This document shows positions 23,147-28,619 of a stretch of 64,000 bases of DNA, piece by piece. Below the pieces are notes generated by a model that saw only the letters and a program-made list of their open reading frames with translations, searched no databases and was not told where the DNA came from. Each line of letters opens with the position of its first letter. The first letter of the stretch is position 1. The translations under genes were made by a program, and so were the position numbers. The DNA is from Bacillota bacterium (GTDB taxonomy: Bacteria; Bacillota; UBA5301; Bu52), in NCBI GenBank assembly GCA_014896355.1, contig JADBKO010000019.1, positions 1 through 64,000 of the forward strand, given 5' to 3'.

Positions 23147-25667
23147 ACGAAAGCCCAAAGTCGGCATGGCCAACGCCTTCATCACCCATTACCCTTCGGG
23201 GCAAGTCATCCTGCGTTTTCTGCAGGAGGCCGGCGCAGACGTGATCCGCACGCCGCGCACCACCCCGGAGATCCTGCAGGCGGCCACCACTCTGGCCAGC
23301 GCCGATTTTTGCATCCCCTTGCGGGTGTATGTGGGACACATCTATTATCTCTTGCAGAAACATCCCGACCTGGATTTTCTCGTGGCGCCGGCCATTTGCC
23401 GGGAGCGGCGGCGCGGCTCCGCCTGCTCCAAGTACCGGGACCCGGCAGGTGTGGCTGTGCGCTCCATCACCGGCGCAGTGCCATACACCCTCAGCCAGGC
23501 CCGGGGAGCATTTCGAACCTGGGCCATGCGGAAACTGGAGCGGTCCTTCGGCGGAGGCGGACGCGCGGTGGCCAGGTCCCCCTTGCACATCCCGCCGGTC
23601 CTGGCTCCCAACATCTGGTCGCTGGAAAAGGGGGCCATGCGCAATGTCTGTCTGCGCTTGTATGCCGACATTTTCCACATTTTCCGGCCCGAAATGGCGG
23701 CGGCGCAGCTGCTGCCTGCGGCCCTGCGGCGGAAGGTCGGCTTCCTCTCGCGGGCGGAGGCGGCCTTCGAGCAGGCGTATGCTGCAGTGGTGAACGGGGA
23801 AGCCAGCCCGGTTTGGCTGGACTTGAGCGGGCAGGCCAGGCAGGACGGGCAGGCGCTGCCGGCGGGCTCGCCCAGCCGGGCCGGCACGCAGCCGGAGCCT
23901 CCCCGCCTGGCGTTGATCGGCCGCGAATACCTGCTGGAGGATCCGTTGGTCACGTCGGATATCCGCCGCTTCTTCCGCCAGCACGGAGTCCAGGTCATCA
24001 CCCCCCGCGACGTGCCGGAGACGGTGCTGGAAAAAGCCATGGGCGGAGTGGCTGGGTTTTATGAGTCCCACCAGCGCTACGAGGCGTTCATCAAGGTGGT
24101 GGGACCCCTGGTGGACGGGGTGGTGCTGGTGGCCAGCTTCGGCTGCCACCCGGACGGGTTCATGATGGAGTACCTGCTGGACCAAGCGCGGGCGCTGGGC
24201 CGGCCGGCCTGGTTATTCCGCTATGATGAGCAATCTGGCAGCGCCGGCTTTCTGACGCGCTACGAGACCGTGCTGGGATTCCTGGAGGCCCGGCGGGACG
24301 AACGGGTGAAAGAGCAGGCGAAGGCCGCAGCCTGCAAACCGGTCCCGGCGCAGAACACCCCGGCGGCGCCGGCTCCCGCCTCCCCCAAAATACGGCATCG
24401 GGCGTCGGCGCCGCCTGCCCCGGGGCCGGACCTGCGGGAACCCCTGATCATCTGGCCGTACATGAACGAAATCGTAGACCTCACCGTGGAAGAGCTCTTC
24501 TTCCAAGCGGGGCTGGCCCGCTATCTCCGTCCGCCGGCCCCTGCCACCCAGGCCACGCTGGCCCTGGGAGACATCAAGTACACGGAAACCTGCTCTCCCT
24601 TTGCCATCACCACCGGGAGTCTGCGGGAGTCTGTGGCCCGGGTCCTGGCGGAGCTGAAGGAAGAGGCGCGCCGGACCGGCCAGCCGGTTAAGCCCCGCCG
24701 CATCATTATGCTGCAGGGGCGGGGCGAGGGCCCGTGCACCTACGGTTGGTATGCCATCGCCCAGGCCCAGGAACTGCCGCAGCTTTTCGCTCAGGAGCTG
24801 GCAGAGGGGGGACACACCCTGGAAATGGCCAGCGTGGGTTTCCAGGGCGTGCAGGAATTCCTGACCCGCCTGGCGGAGCTGGGCGACAAGGAGCGGCTGA
24901 AAGGCCTAGTGGACTACCTGAGTGCCCCGCCCGGGCAGTCGCGCTGGCGCAAACTGCGGCTCACCCTGGGCTTGGCCCGCTCCATCTGGAGCCTGGCCCG
25001 CCCCACCTGGGCCAAATTGAAGGCAGCCGAAGACCTGCGGGCGCGATCGTTGATTCTACGCGCCCACGAAGTGCGGCGGGGGGATACCACAGCCCGGTAC
25101 CAGGAGGCTTTGGACCTGCTGCGGCAGGCGCATACGCTGCCGGCCATCCGGGCGGCGCACAAAGCCGGAGTCCGGCGGTTGGAATCCGTCCCGCGCGACC
25201 ACGAACCGAAGCCCCGGGTGGTGGCCGTGGGCGAAATCTACGTGGCGCTTTCCTCTTTTGCGAACCGGGGCACCGTGGAAAACCTGATGGGCCGCGAGGG
25301 TTTGGAGGTGGTGGAAGGCGTTTCGGTGCGGACATTTCTGCGCTTCACGCTGCTGGAATTCCTCCGCCGTTTCTGGGTGGGGCTTCCCGGCGTCCGGCAG
25401 GCCGTGCACTGGCTGGCGCGGCACAACATCTATCTATGGCGCCAGCAGGTGCGGGGGCCCGGGGCCCGGCCGTTTCTCACCCGCGAAGTGGGCGGCGATG
25501 GGCTCCTATCCGTGGCGGAAGCCCGGCATCACGTGGAAGATGGCGCCGACGGCATCGTGCATATGTTCCCCTTCAAGTGTATGCCGGAAGGCATTGCCAA
25601 GGACGCCCTGACGGAGATGGCCGATTTCTATGGCGTCCGTTACTTGCCGCCGAGCGTGTGCCCATGA
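23136..25667 (+). CDS. CoA-dehydratase/activase large component (DUF2229 plus HgdB-like), C-terminus probably lost
   Basis: An 843-residue protein. The N-terminal DUF2229-type part (about 5-110) has SADFCIPLRVYVGHIYYLL and a Cys pair near 90-97. An HgdB-like half with VASFGCHPDGF and DEQSGSAGFLTRYETVLGFL lies near 325-385. A second related module (about 445-840) has YTETCSPFAITTG, GRGEGPCTYGWYAIAQ and MFPFKCMPEG. In long homologues this is fused behind two BadF domains; here it is a separate overlapping gene. It stops soon after CMPEGIAKDALTEMADFYG, before the final DExxGxxTRxEAF-like motif normally expected. An inverted hppA fragment begins 20 bases later. Confidence 0.85.
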   Translation: MPAERKPKVGMANAFITHYPSGQVILRFLQEAGADVIRTPRTTPEILQAATTLASADFCIPLRVYVGHIYYLLQKHPDLDFLVAPAICRERRRGSACSKYRDPAGVAVRSITGAVPYTLSQARGAFRTWAMRKLERSFGGGGRAVARSPLHIPPVLAPNIWSLEKGAMRNVCLRLYADIFHIFRPEMAAAQLLPAALRRKVGFLSRAEAAFEQAYAAVVNGEASPVWLDLSGQARQDGQALPAGSPSRAGTQPEPPRLALIGREYLLEDPLVTSDIRRFFRQHGVQVITPRDVPETVLEKAMGGVAGFYESHQRYEAFIKVVGPLVDGVVLVASFGCHPDGFMMEYLLDQARALGRPAWLFRYDEQSGSAGFLTRYETVLGFLEARRDERVKEQAKAAACKPVPAQNTPAAPAPASPKIRHRASAPPAPGPDLREPLIIWPYMNEIVDLTVEELFFQAGLARYLRPPAPATQATLALGDIKYTETCSPFAITTGSLRESVARVLAELKEEARRTGQPVKPRRIIMLQGRGEGPCTYGWYAIAQAQELPQLFAQELAEGGHTLEMASVGFQGVQEFLTRLAELGDKERLKGLVDYLSAPPGQSRWRKLRLTLGLARSIWSLARPTWAKLKAAEDLRARSLILRAHEVRRGDTTARYQEALDLLRQAHTLPAIRAAHKAGVRRLESVPRDHEPKPRVVAVGEIYVALSSFANRGTVENLMGREGLEVVEGVSVRTFLRFTLLEFLRRFWVGLPGVRQAVHWLARHNIYLWRQQVRGPGARPFLTREVGGDGLLSVAEARHHVEDGADGIVHMFPFKCMPEGIAKDALTEMADFYGVRYLPPSVCP

Positions 25668-25686
25668 GCATCTCGGGTCTAAGGGA

Positions 25687-25960
25687 ACAGCCCGATGGCC
25701 ACCAGGAGAATGGTCACCAGGTAGCCCCAGTTCAGGGCGTTCATGGGCGGTTCGTCGTTTTCTGCACGCGGACGCTGAGAGTATTGCGCAGGATAGAGGC
25801 GATGAACTCACGGAGCGGGCCACCAGCGGAAACAGGATACCGTTCACGCCGAAGATCGGGAAGAGCGCGATGCCCAGGATCATGGCTCCGATGTTTTTCC
25901 GCCGTGGACTCGTTGTGGCGCCACGGCCCGCGCGACCTGCCTGGGCAACATGCATACCCG
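25687..25960 (-). pseudogene. Inverted, decayed partial copy of hppA
   Basis: Read on the minus strand, this stretch matches hppA from about 27226 to 27475 (codons about 229-311). It encodes NIGAMILGIALFPIFGVNGI and LFPLVARSV, as hppA does, and then several small indels break the frame. The identity is high in the middle and fades near 25930-25960. It has no start, and its orientation is opposite to hppA, which begins 580 bases away. It is a duplicated remnant, not a gene. Confidence 0.88.
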
Positions 25961-26540
25961 CCTTCGGCGCGGGCATTCTAGGAGCGTAGGGTCTACAGCA
26001 GCCGGGCCAAGGCTGTCGCCGGCTCTTATCAGGGCCGGCGATGGCCGGGCAAAGGTTGTTGCCGGTCAGGTCCTGACCGGCAACAGCCAGCGCGCAGACT
26101 GGCACCGGTCTATACTGGATCGGCGGCTGTCTACGGATAGCTGCCGGTTCATACAAAGATCGGTGTCGGTCGAGCTAAGATTCCGACGGGTTCCGCAGAC
26201 CGCCCAGTTTTAACATCTGGCGCAGTTGGAGGTTTCCGCTCCGCCGAGAGGTGGGCGAAGGCTTCCCAGGGATCCTTCGGGGTCGAGCCAAGGTGATTGC
26301 AGGTTCCGTAATGGTTCCCGGCAGCCGAAAGGTTGCCTCGAGCCATGCAGGAATCTGTGGTTGCCGGGTGCGAAGGTTGCTGTAGGCTCTTTCTTTCTAT
26401 TCCAGACGTCTTCCGGCGTGGGCGCAGCCGGAGGCGGAAGGCCCTGCCGGCGCATTGTCGTACCCGGGAACGGCAGGAACTGGGCGGCCTTTGGCGAAAT
26501 CCCCCCGTGTTTGTGCAAACAGCCGCAAGGAGGGATTCTG
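25961..26540 (+). ncRNA. Long, highly structured leader upstream of hppA (no gene)
   Basis: No protein gene is recognisable in these 580 bases. Strong hairpins follow one another: 26016-26041 (8-bp stem), 26058-26084 (27-bp palindrome), 26117-26152 (16-bp stem with a TACG loop of the UNCG class) and 26300-26357 (22 pairs, two symmetric internal loops, GAAA tetraloop). Smaller stems are near 26164-26190 and 26402-26430. Stable tetraloops and G-U pairs suggest a folded RNA on the plus strand. It matches no riboswitch class that can be recognised by eye. Confidence 0.5.
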
Positions 26541-28619
26541 TTGCAACCACATATGGGCATGCTGGCGCTCATTCCGACCGCCGGCGTTGCCGCGCTCATC
26601 ACCAGCATTTATCTCATCTTGTATGTCGTGAGGCAACCCAAGGGCGACGAAAAGATGCAGGAGATCGCCGGGGCCATCCGGGAAGGCGCACTGGCCTTTC
26701 TGAGCCGCCAGTATCGTACCATCGGCATCCTGGCCGTCGTGGTGGCCCTCATCCTGCTGGTAGCAGTGCGGGGACCGCAGGGATGGCACACCGCCATCGC
26801 CTTCCTGACCGGGGCGCTGGCTTCCGCCATCTCCGGCTATATCGGAATGTACACCGCCGTGACAGCCAATCTGCGGGCTGCAGCCGCCGCCCGGCGCTCT
26901 CTCAATGACGCCCTGCGGGTGGCCTTCCGCGGCGGAGCCATCACCGGCCTGGCTGTGACCACCCTCAGCCTTCTGGGTGTCACGGCGATCTTTTATGCGT
27001 ACGGCGGCGCCTCCCATCCGCAGGAAGCTCCGCTTCTGATCGTGGGCTTCGGCTTCGGTGCCAGCTTCGTGGCCCTCTTCGCCCAACTGGGCGGCGGGAT
27101 CTACACGAAAGCCGCCGACGTAGGGGCGGATCTGGTCGGCAAAGTGGAGGCGGGAATCCCGGAGGATGATCCCCGCAACCCGGCGGTGGTGGCCGACCTG
27201 GTCGGCGACAACGTCGGCGACTGCGCGGGCCGTGGCGCAGACCTCTTTGAGTCCACGGCGGCGGAAAACATCGGAGCCATGATCCTGGGCATCGCGCTCT
27301 TCCCGATCTTCGGCGTGAACGGCATCCTGTTTCCGCTGGTGGCCCGCTCCGTAGGGGTCATCGCCTCCATCCTGGGCATTCTCAGCGTCCGCGTGCGGCG
27401 GGACGACGAACCGCCCATGAACGCCTTGAACCGGGGCTACCTGGTTACCATTATCCTGGTGGCCATCGGGCTGTTCTTTGTGACCCGGGAGATGCTCAAT
27501 GGCGGCGGCAAGGTCGACTACCTCTACTTCTACGGTGCCGCCCTGGTGGGAGTTCTGACCAGCTACATTTTCGTCTGGACGACCCAGTACTACACAGAGT
27601 ACCGCTACCGGCCCGTGCGGGAAATCGCGCAGGCGTCCACCACCGGTCCGGCCACCAATATCATTGCCGGTGTATCGGTGGGCTTTGAAAGCACGGCCAT
27701 CCCGGTGGTCGTCATGTCCGCGGCCATCCTGGCGGCCTACTGGCTGGGCAGCATGGCCCTGCCCGGCGGCGGCCTGTACGGCACAGCCGTGGCCACCATG
27801 GGCATGCTCTCCACCGTGGCCTACGTGCTGGCCATGGACACGTATGGCCCCATTACGGATAACGCCGGCGGCATCACGGAGATGAGCGGCGCTCCCGAGG
27901 AAGCCCGCGAGCGCACGGACCGGCTCGATGCCAGCGGCAACACCACCAAGGCTCTGACCAAGGGGTACGCGGTGGGGTCCGCAGCGCTGGCGGCGTTCCT
28001 GCTGTTTTCCGCCTACATCGACGAAGTGAAACACCTGCTGGGCTTGGCGCCGGATCATCCCTTCCCCATTGATATCGGCCAGCCCAAGGTGTTCGTCGGC
28101 GCCTTCATCGGCGCCATGTTGGTGCTCTTGTTCAGCTCCACGGCCATCCGGGCGGTGGGGCGCGCAGCTCAGGTGGTGATCCAGGAGGTCCGGCGCCAGT
28201 TCAGGGAAGTGCCGGGCATCATGGAGGGCACCGGCCGGCCCGAGTACGGCAAATGCGTGGACATCGTCACCGTGGGCGCCCTGAAGCAGATGGTGATCCC
28301 CGGCCTGGTGGTGGTGGTGACTCCGGTGTTGGTCGGCGCCATCCTGAAGGCAGAGGCGGCGGCGGCGTTCCTGATGATTGGCACCATCGTCGGCGTCATC
28401 ATGGCCCTGTTCCTGAATAACGGCGGCGGCGCCTGGGACAACGCCAAGAAATTCATCGAAGCGGGCAACCTGGGCGGCAAGGGCTCCGATTCGCATAAAG
28501 CCGCCGTGGTAGGCGATACGGTGGGGGATCCCTTCAAGGACACGGCAGGCCCCAGCTTGCACGTGCTGGTGAAGCTGCTCTCCACCATCACCCTGGTGCT
28601 GGCCTGGCTGTTCATCTAG
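26541..28619 (+). CDS. hppA: Membrane-bound proton-pumping pyrophosphatase
   Basis: A 692-residue integral membrane pyrophosphatase with about 16 helices. It couples PPi hydrolysis to ion pumping. The substrate site is DLVGKVEAGIPEDDPRNPAV followed by DNVGDCAGRGADLFES; the C-terminal acidic motif is DTVGDPFKDTAGPSLHVL. In GNTTKALTKG a Lys occupies the position that marks the K+-independent, H+-pumping class (K+-dependent ones have Ala). A TTG start at 26541 fits the AAGGAGGG six bases upstream; ATG at 26553 is the alternative. A long structured leader precedes it and a strong terminator follows. Confidence 0.95.
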   Translation: MQPHMGMLALIPTAGVAALITSIYLILYVVRQPKGDEKMQEIAGAIREGALAFLSRQYRTIGILAVVVALILLVAVRGPQGWHTAIAFLTGALASAISGYIGMYTAVTANLRAAAAARRSLNDALRVAFRGGAITGLAVTTLSLLGVTAIFYAYGGASHPQEAPLLIVGFGFGASFVALFAQLGGGIYTKAADVGADLVGKVEAGIPEDDPRNPAVVADLVGDNVGDCAGRGADLFESTAAENIGAMILGIALFPIFGVNGILFPLVARSVGVIASILGILSVRVRRDDEPPMNALNRGYLVTIILVAIGLFFVTREMLNGGGKVDYLYFYGAALVGVLTSYIFVWTTQYYTEYRYRPVREIAQASTTGPATNIIAGVSVGFESTAIPVVVMSAAILAAYWLGSMALPGGGLYGTAVATMGMLSTVAYVLAMDTYGPITDNAGGITEMSGAPEEARERTDRLDASGNTTKALTKGYAVGSAALAAFLLFSAYIDEVKHLLGLAPDHPFPIDIGQPKVFVGAFIGAMLVLLFSSTAIRAVGRAAQVVIQEVRRQFREVPGIMEGTGRPEYGKCVDIVTVGALKQMVIPGLVVVVTPVLVGAILKAEAAAAFLMIGTIVGVIMALFLNNGGGAWDNAKKFIEAGNLGGKGSDSHKAAVVGDTVGDPFKDTAGPSLHVLVKLLSTITLVLAWLFI

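Follow-up and report, generated by a model that had tools for sequence, protein, structure and literature searches.

Structured RNA in the region upstream of hppA

The region preceding hppA in the window, the stretch of 64,000 nucleotides analysed here, contains a series of hairpins that raised the question of whether an RNA is encoded there and whether it serves the adjacent gene. The original prediction, made from the sequence, had proposed an element of roughly 500 bases (25961-26540) as a new regulatory RNA for the hppA pump. Folding calculations on 25985-26400 as a plus-strand RNA returned a free energy of -261.7 kcal/mol with a z value of -14.8 against 100 dinucleotide shuffles, so that the strong hairpins are real and far above chance, while the reverse strand only reached a z value of -4.7 in dinucleotide shuffles.

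The RNA proved to be shorter than predicted, with a length of about 400 nt and a core, from P1 to P1, located at 25989-26389 on the plus strand:

25987-26400, plus strand: RNA gene; ends approximate, the start placed from the -10 element and the end from the U-run; alignment A2 (42 relatives), fold z -14.8

The first hairpin of the region (25957-25973) falls within the promoter spacer and outside the RNA, and the 3' end does not lie just before the ribosome site of the TTG-started gene, as had been proposed, since about 140 nt separate it from the hppA TTG at 26541.

The RNA consists of nine helices of about 15 bp, P1 to P9, disposed in constant order around a central junction. Six helices (P1, P2, P3, P4, P6 and P8) meet at the junction and three of them carry a second helix (P5, P7 and P9). 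The features are given below with the percentage of alignment cells paired and, for some helices, the base pairs showing two-sided changes:

25989-26003 with 26375-26389, plus strand: P1, closing helix of 15 bp; 99.4% of cells paired, two-sided changes in 10 of 15 pairs
26011-26025 with 26032-26046, plus strand: P2, hairpin; 98.7% paired, two-sided changes in 12 of 15 pairs
26054-26068 with 26074-26088, plus strand: P3, hairpin; 93.6% paired, basal extension pair 26049:26093
26097-26110 with 26158-26171, plus strand: P4, enclosing P5; 94-97% paired (P4/P5), two-sided changes in nearly all pairs
26117-26131 with 26136-26151, plus strand: P5; 94-97% paired (P4/P5), UACG loop at 26132-26135 in the window copy
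26179-26194 with 26269-26284, plus strand: P6, enclosing a variable insert and P7; 96.1% paired
26229-26245 with 26250-26265, plus strand: P7; 95.4% paired, GNRA-type loop GAGA
26292-26307 with 26350-26365, plus strand: P8, enclosing P9; 97.9% paired
26312-26326 with 26331-26345, plus strand: P9; 96-99% paired, GAAA loop at 26327-26330
26390-26398, plus strand: U-rich run directly 3' of P1 (TTTCTTTCT), presumed intrinsic terminator

Both tetraloops of the original prediction were recovered, GAAA at the very position indicated (26327-26330) and TACG one base upstream of the predicted 26133-26136. The P9 loop is of the GNRA type in 41 of the 42 relatives and the P7 loop mostly so, and the interhelix linkers are mostly 7-8 nt long with a GAGC-AA flavour. 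The P6 insert (26195-26228 in the window) varies strongly in length and sequence and is hairpin-like in some copies; the P6-P7 insert may mark a position where variation is tolerated, or an exposed loop. Downstream of P1, the 8 nt that follow contain on average 4.8 T in the 42 relatives, compared with 2.4 in a control 8-mer taken 20 nt further, although the U-run is short in some of them (fewer than five T in eight in 17/42).

Identification of relatives and covariation analysis

The comparison genomes included none closer to the window than the same class. A BLAST DNA search within this class provided the first lead, consisting of two loci (G004 and G005) 69-71% identical to the window over 109-153 bases, neither of which lies beside hppA and both of which bear an array of hairpins of about 15 bp collinear with that of the window. 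Two covariance models were used, R1 from three sequences covering the 3' part of the element and R2 from 42 sequences. R1 matched 163 of the 399 genomes of the phylum and R2 matched 171 of 399 at E <= 0.001; the E-values are rough owing to a short calibration, and the best matches exceed 100 bits. The Bacillota MAGs E21_metabat.bin.75 and BP5.bin74 also matched, the latter more weakly.

Alignment A2 brought together 42 full-length elements, taken from the window and from 40 fetched loci, with a median pairwise identity of 60% and a P1-to-P1 length of 351-447 nt (median 396). P1 to P9 were collinear in all 42 relatives, and the fold is conserved across this class of RNA. Over the whole alignment 96.4% of 5677 cells were paired, a percentage biased towards the one A2 member from which the structure string was taken. 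Two-sided changes occurred in 117 of 137 pairs, a level too high to be attributed to this bias. Compensatory changes in the stems, the check proposed with the original prediction, amounted to 1133 cells, well above both the shuffled mean of 294.6 and the maximum of 241 obtained with slid structures, which strongly supports a structured noncoding RNA.

A mutual-information scan detected further pairs outside the counted helices. The strongest covariation was shown by 26049:26093, with CG in 29, GC in 11, UA in one and GU in one of the 42 sequences (42/42), and a second pair was 26176:26286 (UA in 33, CG in 6); these pairs lengthen P3 and P6 past small internal loops. G-U combinations accounted for 25% of cells over the 42 relatives, compared with 0.7% for C-A, which corresponds to G-U on the complementary strand. 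The RNA is therefore read from the plus strand of the window, and the predicted plus-strand-only tolerance of G-U pairs was confirmed.

Since the hppA frame is open in the 5' direction up to a TTG at 26226, across the 3' half of the RNA (26226-26540, plus strand), automatic gene callers might assign a false N-terminal extension to hppA. A protein-coding reading of this 3' part (open frame 26226-28619) was discarded, as pairing is conserved and indels break the frame.

Genomic location and relationship with hppA

Most genomes with the RNA carry a single copy (R1). Two or three copies were observed in G079:C9, G299:C73, G321:C1, G383 (C36, C13 and C34), G355, G312 and G018:C41, and the spacing of 2.6-16 kb between some of them suggests local duplication; copies separated by a few kb occur in G079 and G299. 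A 19-nt stretch (G000:C102:4025-4043, locus L115) identical to the 3' strand of P3 plus the linker that follows, close to an apparent transposase gene, was set aside as probably due to chance.

The neighbourhoods of the fetched copies were searched for a conserved gene partner and none was found. The neighbour cluster occurring in 14 of 41 neighbourhoods was an ABC-transporter ATPase, named by eye from its sequence, and was rejected as a conserved partner because it was taken as the effect of a common protein family. Local runs of shared neighbours, for instance in the f18 genomes, reflect relatedness.

These data bear directly on the proposal that the RNA is a cis-acting, riboswitch-like leader controlling hppA. 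In the window the RNA does lie upstream of hppA on the same strand, ending 140 nt before its start. However, in the 21 other genomes containing both, the two are on separate contigs or at a distance exceeding 1 Mb (0/21 adjacent); as many assemblies are fragmented, only direct adjacency is excluded by this count. Moreover, the hppA flanks of relatives contained no sequence matching the element, the gene neighbours of the RNA copies vary, and the RNA carries a separate promoter signature and finishes in a U-run of its own. P1 and the U-run would stop the transcript ahead of hppA. The leader reading was thus rejected on location and appears extremely improbable; the original prediction holds as regards a new structured RNA, supported by covariation and by the lack of an Rfam match, and fails as regards hppA regulation.

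The decayed hppA fragment reported upstream was confirmed as an inverted copy of hppA nucleotides 683-962, located at 25662-25933 on the minus strand with 87.6% identity and 14 gap positions, directly 5' of the RNA promoter. It is a partial inverted duplication within the same locus.

Forespore-type promoter signature

Inspection of the sequence upstream of P1 revealed two elements in the window:

25952-25956, plus strand: -35 element GCATA, sigma-G type; the window copy matches GHATR-N17-CATNHTA exactly
25974-25980, plus strand: -10 element CATTCTA, 17 nt after the -35 element and 8 nt before P1

The relatives show a G(T/C/A)ATA box followed after about 17 nt by a -10 box that is rich in A and T, in many cases has GG just before it, and ends 6-13 nt ahead of P1. 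The consensus forms of the sigma factors used here are those of Bacillus subtilis, sigma-G being represented by GHATR-N16-18-CATNHTA. Matches to these forms were counted at fixed position and compared with the expectation from GC-matched windows of the same loci. The sigma-G form with at most one mismatch was present in 20 of 42 upstream regions against 0.2 expected, and with at most two mismatches in 35 of 42 against 2.3 expected; among 34 sequences less than 80% identical the sigma-G count was 16. For sigma-F, 11/42 regions matched with no more than one mismatch, against 0.15 expected, while the sigma-A, sigma-E, sigma-B and sigma-H forms showed no excess upstream of P1 in the 42 relatives. 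Sigma-F and sigma-G motifs are documented to overlap in C. difficile (PMC7438776). A putative sigma-F/G promoter is present at the correct distance from the RNA, as would be expected for a forespore-specific transcript.

Occurrence in spore-forming genomes

The sporulation protein SpoIVA (PF09547) was detected in 336 of the 399 genomes, and R1 matched 157 of these 336 and 6 of the 63 SpoIVA-negative genomes. Five of the six carriers devoid of SpoIVA contain SigG (four above the curated cut-off and one just below), and the assembly of the sixth is 61% complete. The remaining 57 SpoIVA-negative genomes, 55 of which also lack SigG, include no confirmed carrier. R1 thus places the RNA in 162 and R2 in 170 of the 343 sporulators, and the 55 genomes with neither SpoIVA nor SigG have none. 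With the incomplete genome treated as a contrary case, Fisher's test for R1 gives p = 5e-13, a value that ignores shared ancestry. The RNA is therefore restricted to the sporulation-capable genomes of the sampled phylum. Within family f15 it occurs in three sporulators and is absent from two relatives without sporulation genes (G187 and G350). A 23-bit R2 match in the asporogenous genome G214, returned by a laxer search of 36 non-sporulators, was rejected as a single hairpin with no array.

About half of the sporulators, including three of the six class relatives of the window, have no detectable copy; with matched and unmatched sporulators equally numerous, sporulation in general does not require the RNA. 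In three genomes of family f48 (G300, G364 and G049) the RNA and spoIVA are convergent and separated by about 1 kb, a notable arrangement that is not general.

The distribution also bears on whether the locus is a mobile or selfish element, in which the hairpins would act in DNA mobility and not as part of an RNA. Such an element would fit the presence of up to about three copies in certain genomes (e.g., G383 and G355), the variable location and the inverted hppA fragment adjoining the window copy. It is nevertheless very improbable given the G-U bias towards a single strand (25% versus 0.7%), the positioned promoter, the predominance of one copy per genome, the lack of a conserved adjacent transposase and the occurrence in spore formers only.

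Proposed role of the RNA

The region 25952-26400 on the plus strand very probably represents the gene of a stand-alone RNA made in the forespore, acting in trans and perhaps architectural. From the sequence features we infer its forespore transcription, its termination and its action away from its own gene. The forespore RNA polymerase, carrying sigma-G and probably sigma-F too, would initiate at about 25987, and the transcript would fold while being made into a six-helix junction, P7 and P9 being capped by GNRA loops. P1 and the following U-run are probably the terminator, and pairing of the 5' and 3' ends would seal the molecule against exonucleases. The finished RNA would then work in trans.

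With its rigid, repetitive arms and conserved GNRA loops, the RNA looks suited to an architectural role. The RNA might be the scaffold of an RNA-protein particle or of an RNA-only oligomer in the developing or dormant spore, a conjecture with an appreciable, if minor, chance of being correct. A more specific form, in which the endospore RNA, alone or with proteins, would form a defined particle that remains in the dormant spore to protect or sequester a cellular component until germination, is speculative and rather unlikely. If it were true, bacterial sporulation would, to our knowledge, be linked to a large architectural RNA for the first time.

Two other functions were weighed against the architectural one. 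A trans-acting regulator in spore formation, pairing with mRNAs or titrating a regulatory protein like csfG, is possible though unlikely; the forespore-type promoter and the independent location agree with it, and sporulation-controlled small RNAs are known (PMC9147052). On the other hand, nearly the whole molecule is engaged in helices, with only short linkers left unpaired, and covariation outweighs sequence conservation, which is unusual for an antisense regulator. Alternatively, an abundant, nuclease-resistant A-form RNA might bind spore proteins as a decoy or constitute a nucleotide reserve, with its shape and stability under selection and not its fit to a specific partner. The extreme stability, the even helices of about 15 bp and the type of promoter are in line with this store or decoy, but the conserved junction linkers, the GNRA loops and the covariation outside the main helices indicate, over and above bulk stability, a specific three-dimensional shape and make it improbable.

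Few large structured RNAs are conserved across many bacterial families, and several of those known have no assigned function. The RNA described here occurs in about 40% of the genomes sampled from a major phylum of spore formers with a strongly supported fold, and carries a functional clue of its own, the forespore-type promoter and the restriction to spore formers making its role directly testable.

Comparison with known RNAs

A search of the whole window against Rfam 15 (4227 families) at gathering thresholds returned four tRNAs only. With permissive thresholds on 25900-26600, the best weak matches were far under the gathering scores and none was credible, and loci L113 and L114 likewise gave no match at gathering score. 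The predicted absence of known-RNA signatures (T-box, OLE and others) was thus borne out, no family reaching threshold. No description of this RNA was found in the literature outside subscription journals. The RNA is apparently undescribed and apparently forms a new family, to be placed loosely in the group of large ornate RNAs. It illustrates that Rfam can lack a widespread class of RNA.

This group includes OLE, GOLLD and ROOL (PMC12286853), OLE being present in anaerobic and extremophilic Gram-positives (PMC9723947). The window RNA resembles them in being stand-alone, large and multi-branched, with a function unknown or partly known. In contrast to their size of about 600 nt or more, it measures about 400 nt and has nine helices of nearly equal size arranged around a single junction; it shows no sequence or structure match to them in Rfam, has a forespore-type promoter and was seen in no phage or tRNA-island context.

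The presumed timing in sporulation is shared with csfG and Bvs196. The former is expressed in the forespore under sigma-F and sigma-G. The latter is a 294-nt sporulation-specific RNA of Bacillus, among the small RNAs under sporulation control described in PMC9147052. Both are shorter and belong to the Bacillus lineage.

Finally, as no Rfam match was obtained, the RNA does not belong to the raiA family as far as Rfam holds raiA, but like the raiA motif RNA, or ModT (PMC11706538), it is structured, stand-alone and widely conserved in Bacillota.
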